A model generated the notes under the pieces. It was not told the DNA's origin and did not search any database. It worked only from the letters and a program-made list of their open reading frames with translations. This document shows positions 10,254 through 19,968 of a stretch of 64,000 bases of DNA, piece by piece (the first letter of the stretch is position 1; every line of letters starts with the position of its first letter). This DNA comes from Hyphomonas sp. (lineage in GTDB: Bacteria > Pseudomonadota > Alphaproteobacteria > Caulobacterales > Hyphomonadaceae), in assembly GCA_017792365.1 (NCBI GenBank), contig CP051229.1:496001-560000 (forward strand). Direction: 5' to 3'. The translations under genes were made by a program, and so were the position numbers.

Positions 10254-10782
10254 CCAGTTTGTCCGCAGCTTGAGGGCAGGCAGTCGGCGCTAAGGCGGCT
10301 CAGGTCGATGAGGACAGCAAGCGCCGGGGGGCCGCGTCAGGTCGGGCGACAAGACGCGGCGCCCCCGGCAAAGGCCCGTCCCCTGAACCTGAGCCCGGCC
10401 TGCATGTCCCCTGTGCTCGCCGCGTGCTGCGCAGAATCGCACGCCTCGCGCTCGGCGAGCTCCCTGGATTTCCAGATGCGACCTGTCCCTGACCCTTAGG
10501 TAGACATCGGAAAGTACACATTTTTAGCCCATCGACTCGGGGTGTGCACAGTACGATCTTGCAGACGCAGTCTAATCTGTAGCTCATTTGTTGCTGATCT
10601 GGATGGCGGCCGCGATTCTGGGTGCAACGTTGCCGCATACCTTGATGCGAGACCCGCTTCGCGACATTCTTCTCCTCGGACATGACCAGACCAACTAGGT
10701 ACTAGTGGCTCATAGGTCGGGTTCCGGTTCACAGACCGGTCGGGGAAAGGAAACGCGCGGCGCGCGTGTCGGGAAAAACAAC
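10254..10782. other. About 530-base gap with a strong hairpin and an AT-richer promoter region
   Basis: No convincing gene. The left part holds the hairpin at 10323-10369. The right part (about 10490-10720) is clearly lower in GC than its surroundings and probably contains the promoter of the TPR regulator. An open frame on the minus strand (10300-10683) has no protein-like composition. Confidence 0.55.
10323..10369. other. Strong imperfect hairpin downstream of the YcaQ-like gene
   Basis: GCCGGGGGGCCGCGTC pairs with GACGCGGCGCCCCCGGC through 16 base pairs with a single bulged C and a 14-base loop, 70 bases after the stop. No T-run follows, so it may stabilise the transcript end rather than terminate it. 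Confidence 0.5.
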
Positions 10783-13071
10783 ATGTCCCCATCGCTTCCC
10801 CCGATAGACCTTTCGAAGGTGCCAGACTTCCGCATTGGTAAGCTGACGCTCCGGCCCTCGCTACTGACCGTTCGCGCGGGCGAAGACGAACAGGTCATCC
10901 AGCGCCTCCTGATGCAGTTCCTGATCGCGCTCATCCAGGCCGAAGGCGAGGTTGTCTCGCGTCAGGAATTCGGCGTCAGGTGCTGGAACAATCCCGGCGT
11001 CTCGATCGCATCGCTCAACCGCGCCGCCAGCGAAGTCCGCAAGATACTGGATAGTGCAGGCAGCACCGTCGAGATCGTTTCGATCCGCGGCGTCGGCTAC
11101 CGCCTCGCGGACCCGGACCGGGAAATCAGGCTCACGCCGGACTTTCTGCGAAGGTCTGACCTCAGCCCGCAAACGCCCTCGCCCAGATCGTCCGGCCGAA
11201 CCACGTTCGCGGATAGGTTCGGATTCGCCATGCCGCGCTGGGGCGTGCCGCTGATCGCCGCCGTCGTCGTAGCAAGCGTCCTCTCCATCGCCGCCGTATC
11301 CCGCAGCAATGCGAACATCACGCCGGATGCCTACAACTCGATTGCCGTCCTGCCGATTGCTGACAGATCAGGTGCCGGCGACCTTGCCTTCCTTGCCGCC
11401 GGCGCAGCAGAGGCGGTTCGCGAGGGACTGGGTCTTGCCGCAGATGGCGAATTCCGGGTCTCGGCGATGGCCTCCACCCGCTCGGTCGACCACGCCGGCA
11501 TGACGGACCGCGAAGTCGGAGAGGCCCTCGGCGTCGATGCGCTGCTCGACGGCGCGATCATGGAGGCGGACGGACAGCCAGTCCTGGCGCTGACGCTTCT
11601 CGACCCGCGAAACGGCCGCAAGCTGTGGACCCGCGATTATGAAGTGTCGCCCGAGAGCGTCGACGCCGTCGGCCACATCGTTGTGGCTGATATCCTGAAG
11701 ACACTCCGGAGAGATGCGGATCTTCCCCCGCGCTCGCCGGATCCGCAGATCGCCGACGCCGCCACGACTGAGATCCTGCTGCGCGCTAGCACCCTGTTCT
11801 GGCTTGGCGACACCGCATCCATCGCCGAGGCCGATGAGCTCTACCTTCAGGCAATCGAACGATCGCCGGAACATGCGCCGGGCTATGCGGGTCTGGTCTG
11901 GACATCGCTCGCCAGCGGCCATGCGCGCCACCATGCCCGCGCAAGGATTTACCTCGAGCGCGCAATCGAGCTCGCACCGTGGCACCGCGACACGCTCCTC
12001 GCCGAGCAGGCCTTCAACGACCACCTCATGGCAGAAGGCATCAAGGGCGATCTGCTGTCGCGCCCCGACGAGCCGCGCCGCGAAGCGGTCCTCGATTACG
12101 GCGCCCGGCTGCGCACGCTGGTCGTTCAGGCGCGCTACAATGAGGCCGAAGCGCTGGTCGACGAAATTGTCCAGCTCGACCCATTCGGCGTCGACACCAA
12201 CGCCAACATTGCGCGCGTCCTGAACCGGCGCGGCAAGCCGGCCGAAGCGCTCGAACGGCTCGACGCAGCGCTGCGCTACAATCCGACATCGCTCGAACTC
12301 CGCTTCTGGCGCGTCAACGCGCTCACCGAAGCAAACGAAATCTCCGCAGCCGCGACCGAACTCCTCGACATGTACGAACTCGCGCCGGACGACGAGCGCA
12401 CACGTTACTTCCTCTCGGTCGTGCTCGGGTATCTCGGCTTCATGGACGAAGCCATCGCCGTCGCCCCCGGCAAGCTTCAGGAGCTGACGGTCATGTCAGC
12501 CAACGGCCAGCACGCCCGGGTCGAGGCGATGGCTGCGCCGCTCTTGATGTTCGACACGCCGTCAGTCGCCCGCGCGCGCATCTACCTGCTGATGCACGAC
12601 CTTGACGCCGCGCTGCCCTGGCTCGCGCGGCTGCGCAAGAACGAAGACACCTCGAACTTCTACGAACACCCCCACGACTACAAACCGTACCTGTCACGCG
12701 CTCTCAAGGAGGCCGGCCGGCACGAGGAGGCAGCGGCGGTTGACGCCGAAGTGCTGGCTGAAATCAATCGCGAGGTCGCCAACGGCGACGTCAGCAAGGT
12801 GCTCCACCTGCCTTACCGGGCGATGGCGGCGGCAGCGCGCGAGGATATCGATGAGCTTTGCGAGCTGCTCGATGTCGCCGCAGCGTCTGGCTACATTCTA
12901 TTTGGTCTGGACGACGTGATCTTCGACCACCTCCGCGACCATCCCGAGTTCGCGACCCGCTACGACGAGTACCTCAGGCTCCGCCAAGCGCAGCACGACT
13001 TGCTCAAGAACGATGGCCACATCGACCGACTACGGACGCTGATCGCCTCGCGAGGCGCCAGCGCGCTCTAG
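10783..13071 (+). CDS. Membrane-anchored winged-helix regulator with TPR domain
   Basis: A 762-residue CadC-like one-component regulator. Residues 18-108 form an OmpR/PhoB-type winged helix (FRIGKLTLRPS at the start; SIRGVGYRL at the wing). A single membrane segment follows at about 155-172 (VPLIAAVVVASVLSIA). The periplasmic part begins with the TolB-like segment YNSIAVLPIADRSG (184-198) and continues into TPR repeats to the C-terminus (for example ADELYLQAIERSPEHAPGYAGL). Proteins of this layout bind DNA on the cytoplasmic side while the C-terminal part senses a signal. Start chosen at the ATG at 10783; two upstream in-frame starts exist. No obvious target gene lies next to it. Confidence 0.85.
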   Translation: MSPSLPPIDLSKVPDFRIGKLTLRPSLLTVRAGEDEQVIQRLLMQFLIALIQAEGEVVSRQEFGVRCWNNPGVSIASLNRAASEVRKILDSAGSTVEIVSIRGVGYRLADPDREIRLTPDFLRRSDLSPQTPSPRSSGRTTFADRFGFAMPRWGVPLIAAVVVASVLSIAAVSRSNANITPDAYNSIAVLPIADRSGAGDLAFLAAGAAEAVREGLGLAADGEFRVSAMASTRSVDHAGMTDREVGEALGVDALLDGAIMEADGQPVLALTLLDPRNGRKLWTRDYEVSPESVDAVGHIVVADILKTLRRDADLPPRSPDPQIADAATTEILLRASTLFWLGDTASIAEADELYLQAIERSPEHAPGYAGLVWTSLASGHARHHARARIYLERAIELAPWHRDTLLAEQAFNDHLMAEGIKGDLLSRPDEPRREAVLDYGARLRTLVVQARYNEAEALVDEIVQLDPFGVDTNANIARVLNRRGKPAEALERLDAALRYNPTSLELRFWRVNALTEANEISAAATELLDMYELAPDDERTRYFLSVVLGYLGFMDEAIAVAPGKLQELTVMSANGQHARVEAMAAPLLMFDTPSVARARIYLLMHDLDAALPWLARLRKNEDTSNFYEHPHDYKPYLSRALKEAGRHEEAAAVDAEVLAEINREVANGDVSKVLHLPYRAMAAAAREDIDELCELLDVAAASGYILFGLDDVIFDHLRDHPEFATRYDEYLRLRQAQHDLLKNDGHIDRLRTLIASRGASAL

Positions 13072-13093: not shown

Positions 13094-15520
13094 TCAGGCC
13101 GTCTGAACGATGCTACCGCAAGCATCACAGACCGCCACGCCATCGTCGGGCCTCAAAGTGAAGTGCCCGCAATTGGGGCAAGCATCGCCAAGATAGGCTT
13201 CATCCCGCTGTGGCGTCGTGGGCGCGCCCTCGCTCTCGGACCGGCTCTCGTCCTTCACCTTCCGGCTCTCGAACAGAACGATATTGTCCGGCATCAGCCC
13301 GCGCGAGAAGCCGCGCGAGATCAGCTGCTCGGGACGCGGCGCCGGCGCGCTGCCTTCGCCTTCACCGGACCCCAGCCCATCGGTCGAGAAGTGCTCGACC
13401 TCCGACAGGTCTTCACGGTCGAGATACGAGACCGCCAGCTCACGGAACAGATAGTCGAGGATCGAGGTCGCGCGGCGAATGGAATCGTTGCCCGTCACTT
13501 CGCCCGCCGGCTCGAACCGGGTGAAGACGAAGGCGTCGACATACTCTTCCAGCGGCACGCCATATTGCAGGCCGATGGAAACAGCGATGGCGAAATTGTT
13601 CATCAGCGACCGGAAGGCGGCGCCTTCCTTGTGCATGTCGATGAAAATCTCGCCCAGCTCGCCATCCTCGAACTCGCCGGTGTGCAGGTAGACCTTGTGC
13701 CCACCGACGGTGGCCTTCTGGATGTATCCCTTGCGCCGGTCAGGCAGCCTGCGGCGTTGCGCGACGTAGTATTCGTCAACCTCGCGCACCGGCGTGATCG
13801 GGCGGCGCTCGGAAGCCTCCAGCACCGTCGGCTTGCGCGCCTTGCGCCCGGCATCCTCGATCCGCGCCCGCAGGTCACGATCGATCTGTCCGCCGCCGCC
13901 CTCGATCCGCAGCCCCAGCCCCGACCGCATCGTCGCCTGGATCGCCGGCAGGAAACTCGCAGCGCTCTGCCGCCCGGCCTCGCCAGCGCGCAGCGTCACC
14001 GCGGGCGGCGTCGACAGCAGCGGCGCAACGCTCACCGCCATGGCGATCCGCGCGTCGACGCTGATGTCCTCGTCCCGCTTCAGGACCGACGCGATGGCGG
14101 ACTTCGGGTTCGACGCCGGCCGGCGGCGCCCCTGCACCGCAACACGCGCATCGTCGATCTCCGCAGCCGACACGCCCAGCGCCCGCAGCAGTGCTTCGCC
14201 GTCTGTGTCGAACGCTTCCGGCTCCAGCTTCAGCCGCTCGCGGATGACATCATCGCCGACAACCCAGCGCGAGAACGCAGCCGCGAGGGGCAGGCCGTCC
14301 TTCAGCGCATCCTCGATCCGGTCCATTGCATCGGTCGTCAGCCCGCGCGATTCCAGTCGCGCACGCTCCAGCCCGTCGATCTGGTCCAGCTGCCGCGCCC
14401 CCAGCACACGCATGCGCACGTCCTGCGCCTCGGCCTCGGTCGCGATGCGATCCAGCGCCGCCACCACACAGCTCGACAGCTTCGGCGTCTCGTCATCCTC
14501 CATCATGTAGAGGCTGGCGACCGGCTCGACGCCAAGGCTCTCCGCCGCAAGCCAGTGCAGCGCCGCGCCCGCCGCACGGTCGGTGGTCAGCGCCAGCTCA
14601 GGAGCGCCATCCCCGCCGCCCGACATCTTGGACGGCCAGCGATTGACGGCCTCAAGCAGTTCCACGGCGCCCGCGCGCGCATCCTCGCTCTCATAGGCAT
14701 GGCCCATCGCCATGACCGCCGCGCCAAGGCCGCTCAGCACAACCTGACAACCGTCCGTCACCGCAGCGATGGCGGCAAGATCGGCGGCGAGCACATCCAG
14801 GTCCTCATGCTCGCCCGTCACGTACCGCGTAAGGTCAAGCGCCACCGCAGGGCTGTCGGCATCGCGCGCGTCCGGCTCCACGCGGATCTCCGCCCAGAGA
14901 CGGCTCCGCGCCAGTCGGCTCGCGGCCTCTGCCAGATCCTGCGCATCGGCGCCTTTCCAGTCGTCGATCGACGCCGACACCCCTGCCGGGTCGCCAACGC
15001 CGGACGCCTGGCGGCGAAGGGTCAGCGCCGCCGACCTCGGCCCGCCGGGCGCCGACAGCGCAGCCTCGATCAGGTCCGCATCCGCGCCCGCCCGAAACGC
15101 CGCGATCAGGCTGTCCGTCGAGGGCTGCCCGTTCTCGTCCGTGTCGATCGTCACGGCCTCCAACGCATCCGCCAGCGCCACCATGGCCTGCGCCGCGATC
15201 TCGCGCGCCGTCGATGCGGCGGCCGCCTCTGACACCAGACTGGCGACGCCCTTGGCGGGGCAGGGCTTTGCGACGTTCGCGACCACAGCCCGCAAGTGCG
15301 CAATCGGCGTCACCTTGTGCGACCGGATCGCTTCGCAGACCGTTTCGACCACGTCGGGATCGCAACCGAGGGCGTTCAGCCCGGCAAAGTGGTTCTTCAG
15401 CGCCTTGGCCGTGTGATCGCCCGCTTCCTGCGCCTGCAGCAGAGCCAGACCGGAGTCCAGGACCCGGCCCATGCGGCGCTCAGCGGCCTTGGATTTCGAC
15501 CCGGCTCTGGATTCGGGCAT
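13094..15520 (-). CDS. Degenerate class II ribonucleotide reductase (NrdJ) homologue with TSCPD domain
   Basis: An uninterrupted frame of 808 residues; functional alphaproteobacterial NrdJ proteins are about 1200. The last 220 residues are strongly NrdJ-like: [20 protein letters not shown] near 590, [38 protein letters not shown] (the TSCPD domain), and a zinc ribbon CPNCGHF…CDACGS (Cys781, 784, 798, 801). The rest is diverged and shortened. LDLTRYV near 230 resembles the NrdJ segment after its catalytic Cys motif, but the preceding residues (DADSPAVA) contain no cysteine. [12 protein letters not shown] also looks NrdJ-like. I infer a non-catalytic paralogue, perhaps binding nucleotides or nucleic acid. 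Start chosen at 15520, with GGAG 10 bases upstream. Confidence 0.75.
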
Positions 15521-15720
15521 AGAGCGACTCCACATTGCACAAGCAGCAGGGTGCCGACAGAACTGCGAATCAGCCACATGATGGGCGGTATTCGGCGCGA
15601 TTGCACACAAGAAAATGCCGCACTGGGGCGGCAGGCTGTTCACTGGACCCTAACGGTCACGGGCGCCATATTCCCGCCGCGTCCGGGCTGCAAGAGTCCT
15701 GCGGGATTCGTGGAGAAGAC

Positions 15721-16113
15721 ATGTTCAAGGCAATATTCAGCTGGTGGAACGACGCCACGATCGGCGCCCGCTTCGATATTGGCAGACGTGCGCGGCTCGT
15801 CGGCAAGGACGAGCAGGGCAACGAGTTCTTTGAGGAACGCAAGCCCAGCCAGGAAGGCCGCAAGCGCCGCTACGTGATCTACAATGGGGTCGCCGAGCCG
15901 TCCCGCATCTCTGCCGACTGGCACGGATGGCTGCACTACACCTACCAGCAGCCGCCGACCGAAGCGCCGCTGCCGCGCAAGGTGTGGGAGACCGAGCACA
16001 AGCCGAATCTCACCGGAACTATCCACGCCTACAGGCCCCAGGGTAGTCTCGCCGAAACCGGCCAGCGTGCAAAAACCACTGGAGACTACGAGGCGTGGCG
16101 TCCTGATGCGTGA
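15721..16113 (+). CDS. NDUFA12-family NADH:ubiquinone oxidoreductase accessory subunit
   Basis: A 130-residue member of the NDUFA12 family, an accessory subunit of respiratory complex I in alphaproteobacteria and mitochondria. Recognisable segments are FSWWNDATIGARF (residues 6-18), LVGKDEQGNEFFEER, RRYVIYNG near 49-56 and DWHGWLHYTYQQPP near 65-78, then the LTGTIHAYRPQGS tail. It begins a run with mlaD and a DUF2155 gene that is conserved in alphaproteobacteria; the mlaD start lies 8 bases inside this gene's end, indicating translational coupling. It is divergent from the NrdJ-like gene. Confidence 0.95.
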   Translation: MFKAIFSWWNDATIGARFDIGRRARLVGKDEQGNEFFEERKPSQEGRKRRYVIYNGVAEPSRISADWHGWLHYTYQQPPTEAPLPRKVWETEHKPNLTGTIHAYRPQGSLAETGQRAKTTGDYEAWRPDA

Positions 16114-16579
16114 ATCCCTTTTTGAATCGATCGTTGGCCTGCTCGTGGTCGGCGTCGCAGGCGTCTTCCTGTTTTTCTCGCTCAATCAGCGCAGCGAGGC
16201 TGCGCCACGTGACAGCTACGAGCTGACCGCCAGTTTCGACCGCGTCGACGGTATCGGCGTCGGCAGCGACGTGCGCGTTGCGGGCAAGAAGGTCGGCGTC
16301 GTGTCGTCGATCGACCTGAATCCGACCACCTATCGCGCGATCGTCGGCCTTACGCTCCCCAACACCGTCAGCTACGACGGCGAGCCCGTCGAATTCCGCC
16401 TGCCGGATGACTCGACGGCGCAGATCGTCTCGGACGGCCTGCTGGGCGGCGCCTACGTGAGCATTCTCATCGGCGGCTCATTCGACACCCTCGTTCCGGG
16501 CGATGAGCTGCAATACACCAACTCGCCGATCGATCTCCTGTCCGTGCTCGCAGCTTTCGCGGAAGGCACCGGCGAGTAG
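16106..16579 (+). CDS. mlaD: MlaD-type lipid-transport substrate-binding protein
   Basis: A 157-residue MCE-domain protein. It has one N-terminal membrane helix (residues 9-25, IVGLLVVGVAGVFLFFS) and a periplasmic MCE domain: DRVDGIGVGSDVRVAGKKVG near 47-66, and DSTAQIVSDGLLGGAYVSI near 105-123. MlaD forms the hexameric periplasmic part of the MlaFEDB complex that moves phospholipids between the inner and outer membranes. The permease, ATPase and other partners are not in this window. The start codon lies within the end of the NDUFA12 gene. Confidence 0.92.
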   Translation: MRESLFESIVGLLVVGVAGVFLFFSLNQRSEAAPRDSYELTASFDRVDGIGVGSDVRVAGKKVGVVSSIDLNPTTYRAIVGLTLPNTVSYDGEPVEFRLPDDSTAQIVSDGLLGGAYVSILIGGSFDTLVPGDELQYTNSPIDLLSVLAAFAEGTGE

Positions 16580-16623: not shown

Positions 16624-17040
16624 TTGAAGCTGCTCCGCACACTTGGGTTAGCTGTATCGGTCCTGGCGGTCACAAGCCCGGCAACCGCGCTGGAACCGCG
16701 CACCGGCGTCGTGCTCCGCGCGCTCGACAAGATCACCGGCAACTCGATCGACCTGGACTCCCGCATCGGGGAAACCATCGAATTCGGTCGCCTTGAGATC
16801 ACCGTCCGCGCCTGCTTCCAGGCGCCGCCTGAAGACACCCCAGAATCGGCTGCTTACCTCGAAGTGGAGTCGACGACCCCGGAAGACCGCGAGCGGCTGC
16901 CAGGTGGTCAGGACAGCGATACGGAAACCGCCTCTGACGCCAATATCTTCTCGGGCTGGATGTTCGCATCCTCACCGGGCCTGAACGCGCTCGATCACCC
17001 GACCTATGATGTCTGGGTGATCAGCTGCAAGACGGCCTGA
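16624..17040 (+). CDS. DUF2155 periplasmic protein
   Basis: A 138-residue secreted protein of the alphaproteobacterial DUF2155 family. The N-terminal signal peptide ([18 protein letters not shown], cleavage near PATA|LE) is followed by the domain: [30 protein letters not shown], then [27 protein letters not shown] across two pieces. Function unknown; it always sits near mlaD, NDUFA12 and aat in related genomes, so a link with the envelope is plausible but inferred. Its last 37 bases overlap the end of the convergent aat gene. Confidence 0.92.
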
Positions 17041-17657
17041 CCGCTCAGCGCCGCGCCGTCCTGCACAAAGTCGGCGTCAACGCTCAAGGCGTCCGCAAGC
17101 ATCACCTTGAACGCGTCCCGCTCAACCTCCTGCACGCCGAACTGCTCAAGGTGGCTGGTCGTGAACTGCGTATCCAGCAACCGGTAGCCGCCACGGATCA
17201 GCCTTGCGACAAGGTGCACCAGCGCCACCTTCGAGGCGTCCCGTTCGCGCGAGAACATGCTCTCTCCGAAGAACGCGCCCTTCAGGCTGACGCCATAGAG
17301 CCCGCCCACCAGCTCGCCATCCAGCCAGCACTCGACACTGTGCGCATGCCCCATGCGATGCAGTGAGCTGTAGAGGTTCAGGATCGGCGCATTGATCCAG
17401 GTCTCGCGCCGCCCGTCCGCCGGCTCCGCGCACGCCTCCATCACTTCGGAGAAGGCGGTGTTGATCCGGATGGAGAAGGTCTCCGCCCGAACCGTCCGCC
17501 GCAACCGGCGCGGCACATGAACTTCATCCAGCGGCAGGATGCCCCGGATATCGGGATCGACGAGAAACAGCCTTGGGTCATCTGCGGCTTCCCCCATCGG
17601 GAACACGCCGCGGGCATAACAGTCCAGCAATTCGAGCGGCCCGAATGAGCGGCTCAC
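17004..17657 (-). CDS. aat: Leucyl/phenylalanyl-tRNA–protein transferase
   Basis: A 217-residue Aat enzyme, the bacterial N-degron transferase that adds Leu or Phe to proteins with N-terminal Lys or Arg, marking them for ClpAP. Family blocks are [12 protein letters not shown] (near 9-20), [67 protein letters not shown] across two pieces, and [15 protein letters not shown]. Its start lies 6 bases after the accC stop, so it is the last gene of an aroQ-accB-accC-aat operon. Its 3' end overlaps the convergent DUF2155 gene by 37 bases. Confidence 0.97.
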
Positions 17658-17663
17658 GACCGG

Positions 17664-19013
17664 CTACTCCTTCCTGGAGCCCGCCAGATAGGACTCCAGC
17701 CAGTGGATGTCATAATCGCCGTTCTGGACATCCGGGTTGTCGACCAGCCTCAGGTGCAGCGGCAGTGTCGTCTCAACGCCGGAAACCACCATCTCCCCAA
17801 GCGCGCGTCGTAAGCGCATCAGCGCTTCATTGCGCGTCTGGCCCAGCACGATCAGCTTGCCGATCAGGCTGTCGTAATGCGGCGGTACGCGATAGCCGGA
17901 ATACACGGCGGAATCGAGCCGCACGCCAAGCCCGCCCGGCGCATGGAAGTCTGTGATCGTCCCCGGGCAGGGGACAAACGTTTCCGGGTTCTCTGCGTTG
18001 ATCCGGCACTCAATCGCATGCCCGGTGAACTTCACGTCCTTCTGGGTGAACGGCAGCTTGCAACCGGCGGCGATCCGGATCTGCTCGCGAACAAGGTCGA
18101 TCCGCGTGATCATCTCGGTGACCGGATGCTCGACCTGCAGCCGCGTGTTCATCTCGATGAAATAGAACTCGCCATCCTCATAGAGGAACTCGATCGTGCC
18201 GACGCCGAGATATCCAAGCTTCTTGATCGCAGTACAGACTGTCTTGCCGATGCTGGCGCGCGTCGAGGCGTTGATCGCAGGCGAGGGCGCTTCCTCGAAC
18301 ACCTTCTGGTGGCGACGCTGCAGCGAGCAGTCGCGCTCGCCGAGGTGCACGACATTGCCATGGCTGTCGGCGATCACCTGAACTTCGATATGGCGCGGCT
18401 TGCCGAGATACTTCTCAAGATAAACCGCATCGTCACCGAACGCAGACTTGGCTTCGGTCCGCGCGGTCTTGAAGGCATTCTCCAGGTCGGCTTCGGTCTT
18501 GGCCACTTTCATGCCGCGTCCGCCGCCTCCGGCCGCAGCCTTCACCAGCACGGGATATCCGATCTCCTTGGCGACCTTGAGCGCTTCCTTGACGCTCCCG
18601 ACGCCGCCATCGGAACCGGGAACGACGGGAATGCCGGCTTCCTTCACGGCTTCCTTCGCAGCGATCTTGTCGCCCATCATCCGGATGTGGTCCGCGGTCG
18701 GACCGATGAATGTGATGTTGTGCGCCTGCACGATGTCCGCGAACTTGGCGTTCTCGGAGAGGAAACCGTACCCGGGGTGGATCGCTTCCGCGCCTGTGAT
18801 GTCCGCCGCCGTGATGATGGCGGGTATGTTCAGGTAGGACTTGGCGCTCGGCGCCGGCCCCACACACACGCTCTCATCGGCCAGCCGCACGTGCATCGCG
18901 TCGGCATCGGCTTCGGAGTGGATTGCAACGGTGGAGATCCCCATCTCCTTGCATGCGCGATGGATGCGCAGCGCGATCTCCCCCCGGTTTGCGATCAGAA
19001 CCTTCTGAAACAT
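17664..19013 (-). CDS. accC: Acetyl-CoA carboxylase, biotin carboxylase subunit
   Basis: A 449-residue biotin carboxylase, catalysing ATP- and bicarbonate-dependent carboxylation of biotin on AccB, the first step of fatty acid synthesis. The N-terminal domain begins FQKVLIANRGEIALRI. The ATP-grasp part has the Gly-rich loop KAAAGGGGRGMKV (near 158-170) and the catalytic segment YFIEMNTRLQVEHPVTE (near 283-299). Length is typical. It lies 10 bases downstream of accB, clearly co-transcribed. Confidence 0.98.
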   Translation of the reverse strand: MFQKVLIANRGEIALRIHRACKEMGISTVAIHSEADADAMHVRLADESVCVGPAPSAKSYLNIPAIITAADITGAEAIHPGYGFLSENAKFADIVQAHNITFIGPTADHIRMMGDKIAAKEAVKEAGIPVVPGSDGGVGSVKEALKVAKEIGYPVLVKAAAGGGGRGMKVAKTEADLENAFKTARTEAKSAFGDDAVYLEKYLGKPRHIEVQVIADSHGNVVHLGERDCSLQRRHQKVFEEAPSPAINASTRASIGKTVCTAIKKLGYLGVGTIEFLYEDGEFYFIEMNTRLQVEHPVTEMITRIDLVREQIRIAAGCKLPFTQKDVKFTGHAIECRINAENPETFVPCPGTITDFHAPGGLGVRLDSAVYSGYRVPPHYDSLIGKLIVLGQTRNEALMRLRRALGEMVVSGVETTLPLHLRLVDNPDVQNGDYDIHWLESYLAGSRKE

Positions 19014-19023
19014 AATCGCCGCG

Positions 19024-19515
19024 CTATTCGATGATCATGAGCGGTTCGCCAAACTCGACCGGTTGCTCGTTGCCGACCAGGATGGATTTGACCACGCCGG
19101 CCTTTGGCGCCGTCACGGGGTTGAACGTCTTCATCGCCTCCACCAGCAGCAGGGTCTGACCCTCGGTCACGCTGTCACCCTCCTTCACGAAGGCTGGCGA
19201 ATCCGGATCGGGCATCAGGTAGGCCGTACCGACCATTGGCGATTTCACCGCGCCCGGATGCGATGCGTTGTTGGCTGGAGCCGCAGCGGCCGGTGCAGGG
19301 GCCGCCGCCGCAGCAGGCACCGCTGCTGGCGGAGCAGCGGCAACCGGCGCTGCCGCGTAATGAGCTGGCGCTGCGTGCACGATGGTCTCGCCCTTGGAGA
19401 CGCGTATCCGCAACTCGCCGTGCTCCACCTCGATTTCGCCGAGATCGCCATCGCGCAGGATCGCCGCAAGCTCACGAATGAGCGCCGTATCCAGCTTGGA
19501 GGATTTTTCCGACAT
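19024..19515 (-). CDS. accB: Acetyl-CoA carboxylase, biotin carboxyl carrier protein
   Basis: A 163-residue BCCP. The C-terminal biotinyl domain carries the biotinylation site Lys129 in LLVEAMKTFN, and the AccB thumb is present (PDSPAFVKEGDSV near 105-117). A flexible Ala/Pro-rich linker covers about 48-82. It carries biotin between AccC and the AccAD carboxyltransferase. Located between aroQ (6 bases upstream) and accC (10 bases downstream) on the minus strand. Confidence 0.98.
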   Translation of the reverse strand: MSEKSSKLDTALIRELAAILRDGDLGEIEVEHGELRIRVSKGETIVHAAPAHYAAAPVAAAPPAAVPAAAAAPAPAAAAPANNASHPGAVKSPMVGTAYLMPDPDSPAFVKEGDSVTEGQTLLLVEAMKTFNPVTAPKAGVVKSILVGNEQPVEFGEPLMIIE

Positions 19516-19521
19516 CCAGGC

Positions 19522-19968
19522 CTAACTCCGTTTGTTCGCCAACTCGATCGCGGCGTCGACCGCCAGGCGGTACCCATACGCGCCAAACCCTGCGATCACC
19601 CCGGACGCCGCCGGCGCCACGAAACTGCGACGCCTGAAACTTTCACGATTGCCCGGGTTGCTGAGGTGCACCTCAACGACCGGAATCGTCAAGGCTTTCA
19701 GGGCGTCATGGATCGCAATCGAGGTATGGGTATAGGCGCCGGCATTGAGGATTAGAGCCGCTCCCTTGGTGCGGGCTTCCTGAATCCAGTCCACCAGCTC
19801 GCCCTCATGGTTAGACTGCCGGAAGACAACCGACGCGCCGCCTTCACTGCACCGGGATTCCACCAGCGCGCGCACGTCGTCCAGCGTGTCGCGACCATAG
19901 ATTTCCGGTTCACGTTCGCCGAGCAGGTTGAGGTTTGGCCCGTTCAGGCAGTAGATGGTCAAACTCAT
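19522..19968 (-). CDS. aroQ: Type II 3-dehydroquinate dehydratase
   Basis: A 148-residue type II dehydroquinase of the shikimate pathway, converting 3-dehydroquinate to 3-dehydroshikimate. The signature [16 protein letters not shown] is at residues 10-25, with the catalytic Tyr24. The other conserved blocks are [25 protein letters not shown] and [18 protein letters not shown] with the catalytic His. First gene of the aroQ-accB-accC-aat operon and divergent from thiS, with 84 bases between the starts. Confidence 0.97.

Follow-up and report, generated by a model that had tools for sequence, protein, structure and literature searches.

A former class II ribonucleotide reductase gene at the Hyphomonas nrdJ locus appears to have lost its catalytic parts while keeping its TSCPD domain

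What is an uninterrupted gene kept for when its product ends like a class II ribonucleotide reductase (NrdJ) and its catalytic motifs are gone? This question is raised by an 808-residue open frame with an ATG start on the minus strand (13094-15520) of the window, by which we mean the whole 64,000-nucleotide stretch of Hyphomonas sp. DNA that was analyzed (contig CP051229.1, positions 496,001 to 560,000); a likely ribosome-binding site, GGAG, lies 7 nt before the ATG (15528-15531, minus strand). Judging from sequence comparisons, we believe that the gene is a former class II nrdJ, the catalytic parts and redox cysteine pair of which have gone while the TSCPD domain and the zinc-ligand cysteines have been kept, and that TSCPD hence very likely has a job independent of catalysis, a reading to which we assign a probability of roughly 0.9.

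The initial annotation had described an intact frame with an NrdJ-like C-terminus and a remainder some 400 residues too short, and profile searches agreed with it. The window protein matched the NrdJ profile PRK07562 with 319 bits (E 5.7e-95), below the curated cut-off of 1737 bits, the best stretch placing residues 580-762 on profile positions 960-1145; a full-length NrdJ from the same order, serving as positive control, scored 1921.8 bits over 1237 aa, some 430 aa more than the window protein has. The TSCPD domain (residues 589-715; 13376-13756, minus) is the sole Pfam domain above its cut-off (41.3 bits vs. 22.8). The class II N-terminal domain PF08471 was found neither in the protein (P0001) nor in its genome (G000), and the Pfam search of the protein returned no NrdR-type ATP-cone (PF03477). 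Residues 26-544 (13889-15445, minus) form a shrunken RNR-like scaffold of all-alpha and barrel parts, as predicted by an AlphaFold2 model and VIA-align. Within it, alignment and motif search located a finger-loop remnant (residues 220-234; 14819-14863, minus) from which the radical cysteine and its partner are gone; this is the segment running from DADSPAVA to LDLTRYV, correctly noted beforehand as having no cysteine, which aligns with the NrdJ finger loop and is devoid of NPCSE, the motif we take to hold the radical cysteine of that loop. Likewise, neither GGTTRRAAKM nor PTGTIGL, presumably the specificity loop and the phosphate loop, respectively, was recovered from the window protein by motif search. 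The NrdJ helical insert is kept (residues 392-470; 14111-14347, minus; alignment, dN/dS 0.063), and the model has a low-confidence linker at residues 563-586 (13763-13834, minus). Beyond TSCPD (dN/dS 0.018) lie a short motif, SRGFSRG (residues 735-741; 13298-13318, minus), similar in the full, short and TSCPD-only forms described below, and a zinc ribbon (residues 781-801; 13118-13180, minus), aligned through Cys 781, 784, 798 and 801. The redox-cysteine positions in the alignment are occupied by V795 and T807. The earlier impression of a catalytically dead protein with TSCPD and ribbon preserved is accordingly supported, with the correction that the ribbon has its four zinc cysteines but not its two redox cysteines; a search for the radical cysteine and the cysteine pair recovered neither.

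We compared 116 NrdJ proteins, 37 from a genome search and 79 from a related-locus search, with some rows being the same genome under two identifiers (e.g. G003 and L069); outside this set stand G024 (L023), a short protein with four tail cysteines that did not pass the score filter, and L119, a short form by eye that the frame search did not catch. Cysteines and motifs served to separate short from full forms among these 116 proteins, and frame length was the sole criterion in the genome-wide lists given further below, where stop-to-stop frames in GC-rich genomes can overestimate length. The tail cysteines fell into two states, with 59 proteins having all six, 57 having exactly four (always the same four) and none in between. 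NPCSE was found in 56 of the 59 six-cysteine proteins vs. none of the 57 others, the three exceptions being incomplete frames of 636-665 aa. Similarly, 54 and 53 of the 59 six-cysteine proteins had GGTTRRAAKM and PQPHAC, respectively, those without them being incomplete frames, and none of the 57 four-cysteine proteins had either; APTGTIGL occurred in 59/59 and 1/57 (L078). The redox pair was retained in 0/57 four-cysteine proteins and the zinc-ligand four in 57/57. This assignment of the kept four and the lost two follows S. nassauensis NrdJ, for which PMC5704485 proposes Cys920, 923, 936 and 939 as zinc ligands, variants of three of these showing reduced zinc, and Cys933 and Cys945 as the redox pair. 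A tree built from the insert and TSCPD requires two changes to account for the 57 four-cysteine proteins, one of these changes being L078. This protein, from a Brevundimonas MAG contig and counted within the 57, combines a full NrdJ barrel fragment, the start of which directly follows the NPC of NPCSE, with a four-cysteine tail of Brevundimonas type; an assembly chimera is the probable explanation, an intermediate the alternative.

The initial annotation had called the gene a paralogue, and here the locus gave a different answer. On the plus strand, the gene is flanked by a divergent NDUFA12 homologue (15721-16113), a MlaD-type protein found in the locus of some genomes (16111-16579) and a DUF2155 protein (16624-17040), and these are followed on the minus strand by aat (17004-17657), all four identified by Pfam and synteny, and then by three genes (17664-19968, computed synteny) which we take, from their translations, to be accC, accB and aroQ. 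The resulting gene order, aroQ-accB-accC-aat followed by DUF2155-mlaD-NDUFA12, also marks the place of full-length nrdJ in other Alphaproteobacteria. Within the same taxonomic order, a full nrdJ occupies the position of the window gene in three of six cases (G028, G040 and G032), being divergent from NDUFA12-mlaD-DUF2155 with aat-accC-accB thereafter and aroQ next where the stretch reaches that far; the locus neighbors are absent beside the other three (G027, G035 and G036; full genes L041, L043 and L046 off the locus). Short genes sit at the locus in 13 of 14 stretches of 16-19 kb, the exception being L059. For full-length-type genes, at least one locus gene was present in 20 of 53 stretches (Rhodospirillales, SAR11, SAR116, Hyphomicrobiales and others) and none in the remaining 33, e.g. 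in Rhodobacteraceae, several of these stretches being short. The same locus also holds the full NrdJ of family f157 (4/4, each with NPCSE and six tail cysteines) and the TSCPD-only genes for which flanks were available (3/3). As short and full nrdJ share a locus, the window gene is best read, by position, as the old nrdJ itself, changed in place. A whole-genome search found no second copy and no NrdJ over the PRK07562 cut-off, and this single NrdJ-type gene at the ancestral locus, together with the synteny, rules out the paralogue reading. On its other side, the gene is convergent with a large winged-helix and TPR protein (10705-13071, plus), which appeared in none of the compared locus rows besides the window's own copies.

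The suggestion that a working reductase resides elsewhere in the genome proved well founded. In this 3.4 Mb, one-contig genome, class I NrdA (a 620-aa frame) and NrdB are encoded near 1.945 Mb, and this NrdAB is the working reductase; the PF02867 matches are two stretches of that one NrdA frame, and no class II catalytic partner of the NrdJa kind was found in the genome. Neither NrdA nor NrdB of the window genome matched an ATP-cone. The ATP-cone is found in one frame per genome, of NrdR size (152-193 aa), in 40 of 41 family genomes, and the sole match in the window genome is a 176-aa frame elsewhere. Between nrdA and nrdB lies a 269-aa LpxR-like frame (L061 5629-6438), at 24.9 bits vs. a Pfam cut-off of 26.

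The same annotation had considered the part ahead of TSCPD diverged, which is true of its sequence but not of its predicted structure. An AlphaFold2 model of the window protein, built from 37 sequences (mean pLDDT 78.7, pTM 0.65), remained RNR-like in VIA-align comparisons with 6dqw_B, a class Id alpha subunit (Z 18.5, 316 residues, 4.2 A), and with T. maritima NrdJ 3o0n_B (Z 17.4, 329 residues); it superposed loosely on R. sphaeroides NrdJ, the closest relative by sequence (7b9q, Z 15.3, rmsd 10.4). Foldseek ranked R. sphaeroides NrdJ first for the whole model (7b9p, E 9e-10, TM-score 0.34). The barrel thus modeled appears shrunken and emptied, not cut out. With TSCPD alone, VIA-align yielded weak rows, the best being a lipoyltransferase (Z 5.7) and IscU (Z 4.9), weakly resembling the IscU/SufU and CsdE/SufE folds and the nucleic-acid-binding PUR fold, and Foldseek returned no match at E<=0.001; as modeled, these fold matches name no function and are too weak to point anywhere. 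An IscU likeness of class II tails was reported earlier (PMC9669993).

Across the regions of the frame, dN/dS was 0.02-0.15, in keeping with the earlier statement that the gene is not decaying, and TSCPD and the four zinc cysteines are retained under strong purifying selection. In short proteins, compared as 19 disjoint close pairs, some of them near synonymous saturation so that ratios are rough, dN/dS was 0.152 for the eroded N-terminal and barrel part, 0.063 for the helical insert, 0.153 for residues 471-588, 0.018 for TSCPD, 0.120 for the linker and 0.079 for the ribbon. In full NrdJ (16 pairs, rough), the N-terminal and barrel part had a ratio of 0.102, TSCPD 0.041, the linker 0.260 and the ribbon 0.050, and the TSCPD of TSCPD-only genes gave 0.017 (6 pairs, rough). 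No part of NrdJ is thus more constrained than TSCPD, and loss of the enzyme has not lessened this constraint.

Among Caulobacterales, the records of which include Henriciella, Hyphomonas, Maricaulis, Caulobacter, Brevundimonas and Phenylobacterium, at least 188 of 200 genomes match the window protein, a copy being undetected in 12 among the matches listed. In the window's own family, all 41 genomes match without internal stops, with frames of 752-1056 aa among the matches listed; one member in 520 contigs (G001) matches over residues 51-289 only. By frame length and among the matches listed, NrdJ is full-length in family f5, and both kinds occur in f4. In some Caulobacterales (L031, L032, L033 and L035, i.e. 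G029, G031, G025 and G021), the dead NrdJ is accompanied or replaced by a different, shorter class II reductase, of TIGR02504 type in L033, that carries a cysteine-rich ribbon of its own.

A sample of 240 alphaproteobacterial genomes contained PF08471 in 154 and a match to the window protein in 152, and genomes with the latter but without the former led us to further cases of dead NrdJ or TSCPD-only genes, as exemplified by: 1) family f13 (G220), with a 282-aa protein comprising TSCPD and a four-cysteine ribbon at the nrdJ locus; 2) family f102, of a reduced-genome order, with TSCPD and no ribbon at the nrdJ locus (280 aa in G417, 278 aa in G309); and 3) family f154 (G428), with a 918-aa form having PF08471, barrel remnants and four tail cysteines but no NPCSE. 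G428 carries two near-identical dead copies (L220 and L221), one at a contig end, and none of the window-locus neighbors was found beside its gene; the G310 gene turned out to encode a full NrdJ that is truncated at the end of a contig. Class I NrdA was the only reductase in the f13 and f102 genomes checked (G220, G417 and G309). In f102, the TSCPD-only gene was found in 90 of 94 genomes (frames of 269-307 aa) and was undetected in four, and no tail cysteine is left in any of the 14 loci examined (13 genomes). In the sister family f157, 48 of 53 genomes match, mostly with frames of about 1200 aa and a few shorter ones (908, 810, 343, 315, 171 and 141). Within a 40-genome subset, class I NrdB was present in 20/20 f102 vs. 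0/20 f157 genomes; one f102 genome (G468) has NrdB and no detected TSCPD gene. We call this order SAR11-type because an f157 protein shares 97.9% identity with the full NrdJ of L097 (uncultured Pelagibacteraceae). Lineages in which class I took over thus usually retained TSCPD. Going by taxonomy, three or more separate losses took place, in Caulobacterales, in f102 and in at least one of f13 and f154; because the base of the TSCPD-only tree is weakly supported, their independence rests on taxonomy. With catalysis lost repeatedly and TSCPD kept in several orders, a TSCPD job that needs no NrdJ catalysis is very likely, and this job is probably an important, so far undescribed one. Two complete-looking genomes of family f31 (G238 and G369) have weak matches to the window protein (E about 1e-29) and no PF08471.

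These data also bear on whether the protein has a simpler explanation. That it is a pseudogene caught before disruption, as the missing large parts of the barrel might suggest, is the least probable account, given stop-free matches in 41/41 family genomes and a dN/dS (19 disjoint pairs) of 0.018 in TSCPD and still no higher than 0.15 where the sequence is eroded. We also hold it highly improbable that the protein is a still-working reductase with a shifted active site; its open frame and RNR-like predicted fold would agree with this, but NPCSE, the specificity-loop and phosphate-loop motifs and PF08471 are missing from it and a class I enzyme is present. A class II enzyme's tail is able to serve a different subunit (PMC5704485), and split NrdJa/NrdJb enzymes exist (PMC9669993), so that a detached, NrdJb-like tail donating electrons in trans to another reductase might be considered. 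However, the redox pair is missing in 57/57 four-cysteine proteins, no tail cysteine exists in 14/14 f102 loci (13 genomes), and a class II partner was not found in the window genome; the missing pair and partner rule out such a trans-reductant, which we regard as having next to no chance of being correct.

As to the nature of its job, we tentatively speculate that TSCPD would be a nucleotide-responsive oligomerization or docking module tuning DNA-precursor supply, now acting in trans on a class I enzyme that has no ATP-cone of its own, with the remnant of the barrel carrying it or scaffolding a dimer and the zinc ribbon forming a structural cap. Regulation of the real reductase, which the initial annotation had raised, is in this sense a possibility. 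In S. nassauensis NrdJ, the tail is required for dATP/dGTP-dependent oligomers and effector mixtures hinted at a further nucleotide site (PMC5704485). More broadly, and with equal diffidence, TSCPD could be the core of a dNTP-supply regulator independent of RNR class, residing in NrdJ under class II and in a pseudoenzyme or stand-alone protein under class I, at least three times over and including strongly reduced genomes. That some genomes have no detected copy of the gene (12/200 Caulobacterales among the matches listed, 4/94 f102) counts against a role in dNTP supply, as it is not needed everywhere. A role of TSCPD unrelated to dNTP supply, e.g. with nucleic acid or an outside partner, as a second function fused into NrdJ, is a serious contender, if somewhat short of an even chance. 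The weak likeness to IscU/SufU, CsdE/SufE and PUR folds would fit this role, as would the finding that TSCPD is under tighter constraint than the catalytic barrel in full NrdJ as well (0.041 vs. 0.102), but fold matches this weak indicate no direction and the gene stays at the nrdJ locus. NrdR boxes speak on both sides. NrdR-box-like sites (p<=0.05) lie upstream of 21/70 short nrdJ genes vs. 3/70 control pieces (one being the same site), and of 20/21 nrdA genes, 3/8 full NrdJ genes in Caulobacterales and 37/45 of the training set itself, with a cruder scan giving 14/71 short and 30/51 full genes. Retention of such a site in part of the Caulobacteraceae argues against the unrelated role, whereas absence of the box in most lineages (0/14 genes, i.e. 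13 from f102 and L192) argues for it. With the site at the window gene not significant (p 0.215) and the box missing from the other lineages and from most full Caulobacterales genes, coregulation with nrdAB is not general, and we rejected the NrdR regulon as a general link.

Compared with alphaproteobacterial NrdJ (PRK07562), the window protein shares the locus, the order of parts, a near-identical TSCPD, the four zinc cysteines and a related predicted barrel, but has no class II N-terminal match, no finger, specificity or phosphate motif and no redox pair, and is about 430 aa shorter. The solved chains of R. sphaeroides NrdJ (7b9p/7b9q, 925 aa) stop before the tail. Catalytically dead RNR large subunits are found in herpesviruses, where, as here, an RNR fold is kept for a non-catalytic role, although RNR class, host and retained part differ and, to our knowledge, these subunits have no TSCPD. 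The two domains kept in the window protein correspond to the cysteine-rich class II tail (PMC5704485; described as an IscU-like domain with zinc finger in PMC9669993). In the characterized tail, all six cysteines are needed for electron delivery (PMC5704485), whereas the window protein has the four zinc cysteines only and the TSCPD-only form has none. NrdJb of split enzymes likewise consists of tail domains without an active barrel, but serves a class II catalytic partner, which was not found in the window genome.

Within the literature that our searches covered, no paper featured both NrdJ and TSCPD, the latter appearing only in papers on methanol oxidation and health records; no pseudoenzyme RNR or inactive alphaproteobacterial NrdJ was found, and no TSCPD role was reported outside class II catalysis and oligomerization. 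PMC6538847 gives C. crescentus CCNA_01966 as NrdJ, and PMC5869019 lists it as a ribonucleotide reductase dependent on vitamin B12; the literature search found nothing on essentiality of the Caulobacter gene, a Zymomonas transposon study having no bearing on it. We infer that CCNA_01966 is the short form, because Caulobacter genomes L079 and L082 have the short form at the same locus and a C. vibrioides control genome has neither a class II N-terminal match nor an NrdJ over the cut-off; this N-terminal domain was found in 0/14 control genomes. Thus, throughout the window's family and much of Caulobacter's order, the gene annotated as a vitamin B12-dependent reductase is very probably not one. 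Repeated loss of an enzyme with one domain kept amounts to a natural experiment indicating that TSCPD has a function of its own, one that can be tested in a standard laboratory bacterium.

The one phage family matched by TSCPD is an RNR large-subunit family. In the TSCPD-only proteins of f102, the N-terminus additionally consists of a conserved block, about 55 aa long and unmatched in Pfam (dN/dS 0.075; L193 2644-2808, L194 2909-3073 and others).
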